Shown here: piece by piece, positions 4,586 to 64,000 of the stretch
Position numbering within the stretch: the stretch's first letter is position 1
Layout: every line of letters starts with the position of its first letter
DNA from: Mucilaginibacter robiniae
Lineage (GTDB): Bacteria > Bacteroidota > Bacteroidia > Sphingobacteriales > Sphingobacteriaceae
DNA: 64,000 nt
Direction: 5' to 3'
Assembly: GCF_012849215.1 (NCBI RefSeq)
Contig: NZ_CP051682.1
Location: 4,030,001-4,094,000, forward strand
The notes under the pieces: generated by a model
Database searches by the model: none
The model's input: the letters and a program-made list of their open reading frames with translations, nothing else
Told to the model about the DNA's origin: nothing
Made by a program: the position numbers and the translations under genes

Positions 4586-5530
4586 ATGAAAAAACGAATT
4601 TACATCGCGGGTGCAGGTGGAATGCTTGGGGAAGCCTTTTATCGCATATTTAATAATGATTATGAACTTAAATGTACTGATAAAGATGTAAATGAAAAAT
4701 GGCTTAACTTTTTAGATTTTCGAGATTTTGAAAAGTATAAAAGTGATGTAGAAGCTTTCAACCCCGATTATCTGTTTCATTTAGGCGCTTATACGGATCT
4801 GGAGTTTTGCGAACTTAATCCGGATGATACATATTTAACCAACACCACATCGGTAGAAAATGCTGTTTTTATAGCTAATAAGTTAAACATACCACTACTT
4901 TATATTAGTACGGCAGGCATATTTGACGGTAAAAAAGATTTTTACGACGATTGGGATGAACCTAATCCACTTGGCCATTACGCTCGTTCCAAATACATGG
5001 GTGAACGTTATGTTCGTGAAAATGCAAAACGGTATGTGGTATGCCGCGCTGGCTGGATGATGGGGGGAGGACCAAAAAAAGATAAAAAGTTTATTAATAA
5101 AATAATTAAACAACTTATTAGCGGCAACCGTAGCCTGCATATTGTAAACGATAAAGATGGTACACCTACCTTTACTGTTGATTTTGCTAAAAATGTAAAG
5201 TTATTGATTGAAAACGAGTACTGGGGCTTGTATAACATGGTTTGTAATGGTGAAACCAGCAGACTTGAAGTGGCGCAGGAACTGGTTAAAATATTAGGTA
5301 TGGAAAATGAGGTAGCTTTTCATGAAGTGCCTTCCGGCTATTTTGAAGATACCTATTTTGCACCCCGACCACCCTCAGAAAGGCTTATTAATAAAAAGCT
5401 GCAGCTCAGAAATATGAACATTATGCGCGAATGGAAAATAGCGTTACGCGAATATGTGCAAGATTACTTCGCCGATTACCTAAAAGAGAATATTTCTTCT
5501 GAAAAAGAGGGTACTCTTATTCAACACTAG
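4586..5530 (+). CDS. RmlD-like NAD(P)-dependent sugar reductase/epimerase (SDR)
   Basis: A 314-residue extended SDR. The Rossmann motif is at residues 8-14 (GAGGMLG), and the catalytic S/T-YxxxK set is visible as S108-T109 and Y132-x3-K136. It resembles RmlD (dTDP-4-dehydrorhamnose reductase), the last step of dTDP-rhamnose synthesis. However, rmlA, rmlB and rmlC are not in this window, so the substrate is uncertain; it may act on another 4-keto sugar. It forms a two-gene unit with the following GT4 (13 bp gap), which argues that it makes or modifies the donor for that transferase. Confidence 0.8.
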   Translation: MKKRIYIAGAGGMLGEAFYRIFNNDYELKCTDKDVNEKWLNFLDFRDFEKYKSDVEAFNPDYLFHLGAYTDLEFCELNPDDTYLTNTTSVENAVFIANKLNIPLLYISTAGIFDGKKDFYDDWDEPNPLGHYARSKYMGERYVRENAKRYVVCRAGWMMGGGPKKDKKFINKIIKQLISGNRSLHIVNDKDGTPTFTVDFAKNVKLLIENEYWGLYNMVCNGETSRLEVAQELVKILGMENEVAFHEVPSGYFEDTYFAPRPPSERLINKKLQLRNMNIMREWKIALREYVQDYFADYLKENISSEKEGTLIQH

Positions 5531-62877: not shown

Positions 62878-63822
62878 TTATGGTAGTTGTATCATCTGAT
62901 GGTTGCTGATTTTAGTTAGGTCTAATGTAACCCTACCATCGGGTTCTGTATAAAATGCTGGTGCAAACTTAGCATCCCAAACCACTTCATTGTATTGGTA
63001 AGAAGTTCGTGAATGTACCGTTTGCGAAAAGGTATCATCAAACGCTTTAATTAGCACCGCAAAGTTGGCCTGACCGTTGGCCAAATCTTCATGCGTCATC
63101 TGGTAAAGAGGACTGCTCTCATCCAGCGGGTGCACCAATGTCCAGCTTAGGGTCATGATGCTAACCTGCCTACGTTCTAAGTTCAGGTTGTAAAACCGGC
63201 GTACTGGTTTACCATTCACCATTTCGTTATAAGAGAAGATGATTTCGGCACTTAAATCAACCAGCATGTTACGGCGGCGGTTGGCTACCCGTACCATCAG
63301 CCCGCGGCTATCATTCAAATACGGCGCCACCAGCATAACATCGCTGTAAGCCATTTTAGCCGAAGGTCGGGAAAAGCGCCCGTACAGTAAACCGGTAGCT
63401 AAGGCAAATACCAGTAATCCCATCATAGACTCCAGCGCAGCTACCAAATTAGTGGCAAAACCTTTAGGGCTGATGTGGCCGTAGCCTACCGTAGATATAG
63501 TTTGTGCCGAAAAGAAGAATGCATCAAAAAAGTGTGTAACAGGAGAGTTTCCATCGGCTCCGTTCAGGTTTTCAACGCCTAAAATAAGATAGAAACATGC
63601 AAAAATGAGGTTGGTACTCAGGTAAGAGCCGATTACTATCAGCCAGAATTTTTTCCAGCTCATGGTAATCAACGTATTGTAATTATCAATGGTGCTGAAA
63701 AGAGGCAGTCCGCGACGGTTAACGTTAATGCTGCCATCGCGGTTAATTACACGCTGACTCACGGCTTGGGTACCGAATCCTAAGTCGTCTTGCGGGTTAA
63801 CCGCTTGTTTCTTAATAGACAT
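62878..63822 (-). CDS. Inward-rectifier K+ channel (KirBac family)
   Basis: A 314-residue channel. Two membrane helices flank the pore helix and selectivity filter TVGYG (SAQTISTVGYGHISPKGF, about residue 105-120). The cytoplasmic Kir immunoglobulin-like domain follows (SDVMLVAPYLNDSRGLMVRVANRRRNMLVDLSAEI). It conducts K+; gating by lipid or ligand is family knowledge. The ATG at 63822 is preferred to a TTG at 63852. Confidence 0.92.
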   Translation of the reverse strand: MSIKKQAVNPQDDLGFGTQAVSQRVINRDGSINVNRRGLPLFSTIDNYNTLITMSWKKFWLIVIGSYLSTNLIFACFYLILGVENLNGADGNSPVTHFFDAFFFSAQTISTVGYGHISPKGFATNLVAALESMMGLLVFALATGLLYGRFSRPSAKMAYSDVMLVAPYLNDSRGLMVRVANRRRNMLVDLSAEIIFSYNEMVNGKPVRRFYNLNLERRQVSIMTLSWTLVHPLDESSPLYQMTHEDLANGQANFAVLIKAFDDTFSQTVHSRTSYQYNEVVWDAKFAPAFYTEPDGRVTLDLTKISNHQMIQLP

Positions 63823-63880
63823 GCTGTAGTGAAAGTAATTACCGGAGTGCAATATTTGAGGGTAAAAATATTATTATGGA

Positions 63881-63912
63881 TTTGCTTTTCGAAAAAACAA
63901 TAATCATATTTG
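63881..63912 (+). promoter_or_regulatory. Promoter of the Trp-leader transcript
   Basis: TTTG at 63881-63884, a 20-bp spacer, then CATATTTG at 63905-63912 (one mismatch to TAnnTTTG). By the ffs ruler the start is near 63916, about 9 nt before the leader ATG. Confidence 0.65.
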
Positions 63913-63924
63913 CCACATAAAGAT

Positions 63925-63966
63925 ATGCAAGTGAAAAATAACAATTGGTGGTGGCTAAACGAGTAA
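63925..63966 (+). CDS. trpL: Tryptophan-rich leader peptide (trp operon attenuator)
   Basis: A 13-residue ORF, MQVKNNNWWWLNE, with three consecutive UGG codons at positions 8-10 and a TAA stop at 63964-63966. It follows a good promoter by about 9 nt. This arrangement is the sensor part of a Trp attenuator; leaders of this kind (Bacteroid-trp RNA motif) precede trp genes in Bacteroidota. The antiterminator/terminator and structural gene (probably trpE) should start just beyond the right edge and cannot be seen. Name is inferred from content. Confidence 0.82.
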   Translation: MQVKNNNWWWLNE

Positions 63967-64000
63967 TCGTAAGGCAATCTCCTGTTTGTTAAAATGATAT

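Follow-up and report, generated by a model that had tools for sequence, protein, structure and literature searches.

The open reading frame MQVKNNNWWWLNE, which carries three consecutive tryptophan codons at the right edge of the window (the whole stretch of Mucilaginibacter robiniae DNA that was analysed, 64,000 nt), is very probably the leader of a ribosome-mediated transcription attenuator that controls a trpD-trpF-trpB-trpA unit. The ORF, promoter box, terminator, alternative pairings, compensating changes, conservation and gene context were all established by computation. A ribosome-stalling trp attenuator had been proposed from the window in the original prediction. That reading was supported computationally, the stalling step itself being deduced from sequence. 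None of the three outcomes that had been named beforehand as speaking against it (no trp gene downstream, no fold, no conservation of the UGG run) was observed. Attenuation of this kind has been known since Escherichia coli. The mechanism is known already, and the more interesting part is the arrangement of two leaders on a split operon.

The window comprises positions 4030001-4094000 of its contig, in a genome of 4.98 Mb. Plain numbers are window positions. Stretch L002 continues past the window (window position = 63000 + L002 position), and stretch L006 holds trpE. Coordinates of the features are collected in Table 1.

Table 1. Positions of the two trp leaders of M. robiniae, their signals and the genes that follow them.
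Feature	Position	Strand	Basis or remark
-33-like promoter element TTTG	63881..63884	+	Read in sequence; position alone
-7 box CATATTTG, Bacteroidetes TAnnTTTG type	63905..63912	+	5/6 specified bases match
Leader peptide ORF MQVKNNNWWWLNE	63925..63966	+	TAA stop 63964-63966; kept in relatives
Three consecutive Trp codons TGG TGG TGG (putative sensor)	63946..63954	+	Read in sequence
1:2 hairpin, Trp-codon region with antiterminator segment	63939..63991	+	MFE fold
Segment 2 GGCAATC, predicted antiterminator 5' arm	63973..63979	+	Truncated-transcript fold, covariation, mask folds
Terminator 5' arm, partner of segment 2	L002 1008-1016 (just past window end)		Fold
Terminator stem	L002 1008-1030 (outside window)		Fold
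Terminator U tract (T-rich)	L002 1030-1038 (outside window)
trpD	Start L002 1135 (ATG)		NCBIfam name above curated cut-off
trpF	Start L002 2126		Best NCBIfam match trpF, below cut-off (160 vs 215 bits)
trpB	Start L002 2748		NCBIfam name above curated cut-off
trpA	Start L002 3934		NCBIfam name above curated cut-off
trpE leader ORF MIIKAHNLTWWHLIKQAAG, two Trp codons	L006 5168-5227		Read before trpE
trpE leader and terminator	L006 5168-5302		T run ends near 5302
trpE	L006 5314-6729		Best NCBIfam match trpE, below cut-off (425 vs 518 bits); above Pfam cut-off

Leader ORF and promoter

The predicted 13-codon ORF with its three Trp codons was present, and its codons were read directly from the window sequence (ATG CAA GTG AAA AAT AAC AAT TGG TGG TGG CTA AAC GAG TAA). 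A -33/-7 promoter had been placed about 9 nt ahead of it. Both promoter elements were found, with 20 nt between TTTG and the CATATTTG box and 12 nt between the end of the box and the leader ATG. The -7 consensus for Bacteroidetes, TAnnTTTG, is quoted in PMC6414381. The position of the box would place the transcription start a few nt ahead of the leader ATG, which would let a ribosome load nearly as soon as the RNA emerges.

The promoter-plus-WWW pattern TTTG-N14-44-TGGTGGTGG was counted in the whole genome and occurred at 39 sites, against 18 for the same pattern read backwards. An in-frame ATG without an intervening stop was present at four of the 39, the leader described here being one. Two of the others lie inside long ORFs of another frame and were rejected as Trp leaders. 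The remaining site reads like an RND transporter gene. Against a chance WWW ORF, conservation in relatives is a stronger argument than this count. Gene callers probably overlook short leader ORFs of the MQVKNNNWWWLNE kind.

Genes, terminator and antiterminator beyond the window

A trp operon with trpE as its first gene had been expected just outside the window. Trp genes did begin there, 168 nt after the leader stop codon, in the order trpD-trpF-trpB-trpA (L002 1135-4728). The first gene of the leader-controlled operon is trpD and not trpE, because trpE-trpG-trpC sit 2.2 Mb away in the same genome. In the list of TrpD relatives from named genomes, the first 22 entries were all Mucilaginibacter, at 75-86% identity.

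Extension past position 64000 also gave the terminator and the competing antiterminator that had been looked for there. The segment L002 917-1040 had a minimum free energy (MFE) of -36.6 kcal/mol, compared with -22.9 ± 3.4 kcal/mol for shuffles (z = -4.08). It folded into two hairpins, a 1:2 hairpin over the Trp codons and the terminator. Within the 1:2 hairpin, L002 939-944, followed by GG, GGU and GCU, paired with bases between 973 and 991. The terminator hairpin (AGGGTTGCC-CGTAA-GGCAACCCT, followed by a T-rich tract; L002 1008-1038 as a whole) had a predicted energy of -15.5 kcal/mol. When the transcript was folded with an incomplete 3' arm (L002 966-1026), GGCAAUC at 973-979 paired with the terminator 5' arm at -13.5 kcal/mol. 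These predicted pairings are those of the classical 1:2, 2:3 and 3:4 scheme. A predicted intrinsic terminator lies between the leader and the first gene, and the predicted antiterminator excludes it and would itself be masked by a ribosome that has reached the stop codon.

From these features we infer a start site, translation of the ORF, ribosome stalling and a response to tryptophan. With ample charged tRNA-Trp, the ribosome would reach the stop codon and its footprint would cover segment 2. The terminator just past the window would then form and transcription would end. With charged tRNA-Trp in short supply, the ribosome would stall on the three UGG codons and the 1:2 hairpin would open. 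Segment 2, left free, would pair with the terminator 5' arm, no terminator would form, and trpDFBA would be transcribed.

The peptide contains Trp, and a leader of this kind could instead sense free tryptophan within the ribosome, as TnaC does. TnaC depends on a Trp, a Pro some way off and the stop codon, all at fixed positions, and it drives catabolism. Here, by contrast, the Trp codons form a run, no Pro occurs in 65 of the 68 trpD leaders (that of M. robiniae included) and the controlled genes are biosynthetic, which makes free-tryptophan sensing a very improbable reading. Sensing of charged tRNA-Trp is the preferred mechanism.

The effect of ribosome position was modelled by folding 68 trpD leaders, each transcript being taken up to the end of the terminator 5' arm. 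Pairing was barred for every base between the start of the leader ATG and a point 12 nt past the ribosome's codon; the 12 nt figure was taken from PMC4833913. Median antiterminator probability was 0.90 with the ribosome on the Trp codons, 0.19 at the stop codon and 0.06 with no ribosome. It was higher with the Trp-codon mask than with the stop mask in 68/68 leaders. The Trp-codon mask gave more than twice the ribosome-free value in 58/68 and no more than twofold in 10/68, and the stop mask left a probability of at least 0.20 in 33/68. For the M. robiniae leader the values were 0.93 (Trp codons), 0.10 (stop) and 0.89 (no ribosome). Its ribosome-free value is unlike that of most leaders, so that by the mask model an untranslated leader would read through and repression would depend on translation. 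Scrambled trpD segments gave a median of 0.30 and reached the observed value in 2.1% of trials.

Conservation and covariation of trpD leaders

A sample of 80 named TrpD loci was divided into 68 trpD-first and 12 trpE-first loci. A locus was called trpD-first when trpE, trpG and trpC were absent from the fetched stretch, which usually reached 4 kb upstream (1.2-1.7 kb for L066, L074 and L078). The WWW run had been held not to be due to chance, and the UGG run was indeed kept in relatives: a short Trp-run ORF followed by a hairpin and T run was present in 67 of the 68 trpD-first loci. The run was WWW in 65/68 and WW in two (L011, L060). No Trp leader was found at the trpD-first locus L074, which comes from a Sphingobacteriaceae MAG. 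The motif NANNTTTG was located no more than 50 nt before the leader ATG in 67/68 leaders, that of M. robiniae included and that of L050 excepted. The full box CATATTTG was present in 46 of these 67, at 5-18 nt from the ATG. Behind trpB, no trpA was seen within the fetched stretch of the Mucilaginibacter loci L010, L019, L020, L021, L024 and L077.

The residues around WWW are also conserved, and NNNWWWLN is common to many Mucilaginibacter leaders. Conservation of this kind would be expected if the released peptide also acted in trans, an activity reported for the Sinorhizobium meliloti peptide peTrpL (PMC7298713). Pairing in the RNA involves these conserved codons too, however, so that constraint on the RNA could explain much of the peptide conservation. 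An additional role in trans is rated as unlikely.

The 68 trpD leaders (M. robiniae and 67 others) were aligned with MAFFT; one row was identical to another and all were kept. In the terminator 96.1% of cells were paired and three pairs were changed on both sides. The antiterminator was 89.0% paired with two such pairs. The upper 1:2 stem P1 was 87.5% paired and the 1:2 stem P2 87.3%; each had one pair with changes on both sides, which in P1 concerned 17 rows. Shuffles of the 3' letters, which ignore the relatedness of the rows, reached maxima of 93.5% for the terminator, 87.7% for the antiterminator, 80.8% for P1 and 84.3% for P2; the antiterminator thus exceeded its maximum by a narrow margin (89.0 vs 87.7%). 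When slid by 1-3 columns, the stems were paired in 24-67% (terminator), 23-54% (antiterminator), 10-45% (P1) and 13-41% (P2) of cells, a comparison that favours the actual structure because it was drawn from the M. robiniae sequence. The lower 1:2 stems P3 (87.3%) and P4 (62.5%) did not beat their shuffles and had no changes on both sides, and several slid versions of them paired better than the actual one.

The words that pair differ between clades and complementarity is kept. In M. robiniae GGCAAUC is matched with GGGUUGCC, and in part of Pedobacter GUAACCC is matched with GGGUUGC. In the upper stem, several Sphingobacterium have CACAACG with CGUUGUG.

Rfam and genus-wide searches

The Rfam family Bacteroid-trp (RF01692) had been suggested as a check. 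It did find the site, matching L002 900-1016 over the full model length, but at 29.8 bits, below the cut-off of 49. The trpD leader was the best RF01692 match in its genome (E 0.52 for the genome), followed by one at 22.9 bits. The leader also has the family's position upstream of trp genes in Bacteroidetes. RF00513 (Trp_leader) gave no row there up to E 10. Weak matches to Phe_leader, GibS and STnc70, all far below cut-off, were taken as chance and rejected.

RF01692 was also searched in 100 genomes of the genus. Matches at E <= 10 were obtained in 93, and eight passed 49 bits (G092, G072, G037, G091, G096, G075, G052 and G086), a value that is a search cut-off rather than a trait of the RNA. 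All eight overlapped sites of model R2, which was built from 66 of 77 distinct leaders, with that of M. robiniae included and the trpE-first leaders left out. Because these sites coincide, the M. robiniae trpD leader is, as judged from these matches, orthologous to accepted Bacteroid-trp RNAs but is itself missed by the cut-off. With 8/100 genomes passing, the cut-off largely misses Mucilaginibacter.

R2 matched 96/100 genus genomes at 71.6 bits or more (range 71.6-104.3), a rate that characterises the genus but cannot serve as an independent test, since the model was built partly from it. The four genomes without such a match (G008, G039, G071 and G076) were 58-71% complete.

Plain terminators can also be picked up by R2. 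The M. robiniae genome had at least three R2 matches. The one listed next after the leader (40.8 bits) and four alike in relatives were fetched and rejected as leaders, since all five were terminators behind other genes. The hairpin and U tract after MQVKNNNWWWLNE might likewise be the mere end of a neighbouring gene, beside a WWW ORF due to chance. There is hardly any room for this reading. The lower matches among those listed did not exceed 42.0 bits (five inspected) and were set apart from the leaders at 71.6 bits and above. ORF and terminator occur together in all but one of the named trpD-first loci, and the promoter box is missing from a single leader. The ORF to the left (62878-63852) lies on the minus strand and is directed away, so that the hairpin is not the end of that gene. 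This ORF resembles a potassium channel by eye, and a search with NCBIfam models at 1e-10 gave no match. The hairpin is read as the terminator of the attenuator.

Relation to known attenuators

The leader shares with E. coli trpL (RF00513) the alternative 2:3 and 3:4 hairpins and, as proposed, the stalled ribosome. It differs in sequence, in its three UGG codons and in its very short predicted 5' UTR; trpL has two UGG codons and a longer 5' UTR. With Bacteroid-trp it shares the Trp-codon leader, the hairpin over the Trp codons, the conserved segment ending in the terminator 5' arm and the occurrence in Bacteroidetes. Unlike the accepted members it scores below 49 bits, and it stands before trpD of a split operon.

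Bacteroid-trp appears in a motif list of 2010 (PMC2864571). For Flavobacterium psychrophilum, PMC6414381 discusses a Bacteroid-trp element that precedes the trp operon, and PMC9723704 deals with attenuation by leader peptides ahead of amino-acid operons. In Bacteroidetes trp attenuation is, going by these sources, known mainly as a computed RNA motif, and it is extended here to the genus Mucilaginibacter. A literature search by title gave, among the matches listed, no description of two trp leaders in Sphingobacteriaceae or of the trpE leader. A search for Mucilaginibacter together with trp operon found nothing.

A second leader before trpE-trpG-trpC

A second Trp-codon leader was read before trpE in the M. 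robiniae genome, in which TrpC and TrpG were named above NCBIfam cut-offs. Like the trpD leader it has Trp codons, a terminator and a competing antiterminator, and most likely it works in the same way. It differs in having two Trp codons, a different segment 2 and a different terminator.

For 39 of the 80 named loci the genome was searched for TrpE, and 38 gave a match at 1e-60. The exception was Pedobacter sp. PAMC26386 (L058, genome G130), which has trpDFBA and a Trp leader, yet no TrpE match at that threshold. A Trp-rich leader preceded trpE in 39/39 cases (38 named and M. robiniae). The putative sensor was WW in 17 (16 Mucilaginibacter and M. robiniae), WWW in nine, WLW in five and WQW in eight. 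In mask folds the antiterminator was more probable with the stalled ribosome than with the ribosome at the stop in 39/39, the medians being 0.61 and 0.03, and 0.31 without a ribosome. In 8.1% of trials scrambled trpE segments did as well as the observed ones, which makes the evidence for a switch weaker than for the trpD leader.

In 20 of the 38 named trpE loci every Rfam family stayed below its gathering score, and the M. robiniae trpE leader scored 21.7 bits with RF00513, below the cut-off of 41. Model R1, for which 16 of the 39 trpE leaders were used, matched 96/100 genus genomes with a best E of 7e-13 or better (exceptions G008, G046, G056 and G076). The second match in the M. robiniae genome was at 31.9 bits. 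Matches to both leader models were present in 94/100 genomes, the other six being 58-87% complete. When the set was restricted to genomes with completeness of 90% or more and contamination of 5% or less, both were present in 79/79.

An unpaired box is shared by the trpE leaders (L006 5252-5263, with its counterpart in L092-L129). It is CAAnnnnAAACC in all 16 rows of alignment A2 and TCAACCTAAACC in several Pedobacter, and it could pair with GGUUU on the 3' side of the terminator.

R2 gave no match to the M. robiniae trpE leader, nor R1 to its trpD leader, up to E 10. The best cross match seen between the two models was 26.9 bits, at two sites of G092. The trpE leader was not among the matches when RF01692 was searched in the M. 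robiniae genome. In six of the 12 trpE-first loci, a search with RF01692 listed nothing up to E 0.5. The trpD and trpE leaders either go back to an old common origin and have diverged, or arose separately.

A wider interpretation is offered tentatively, and is somewhat less likely to be right than wrong. The trp operon of Sphingobacteriaceae may be split into trpEGC and trpDFBA, and the two units may sense tRNA-Trp through separate attenuators that differ in sequence. The leader of trpE might then represent an RNA family outside Rfam, in which the sensors drift (WW, WWW, WLW, WQW) and an unpaired AAACC box is conserved. With Trp codons that differ in number and spacing, the two units would have different starvation thresholds, and the entry and later steps of the pathway would be switched at different levels of charged tRNA-Trp. 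As a natural case of one pathway in two attenuated units, the arrangement allows the relation of sensor codon number and spacing to threshold to be asked directly.

In the 12 named trpE-first loci, the gene order was trpE-G-D-C-F-B-A, with L075 and L084 ending at a contig edge. A WWW leader preceded trpE in 12/12. In Fulvivirga marina (L076 1647-1953) two WWW leaders stand in tandem before trpE, each with a terminator-like hairpin. This was the sole case among 81 loci counted and is possibly a double attenuator in series.
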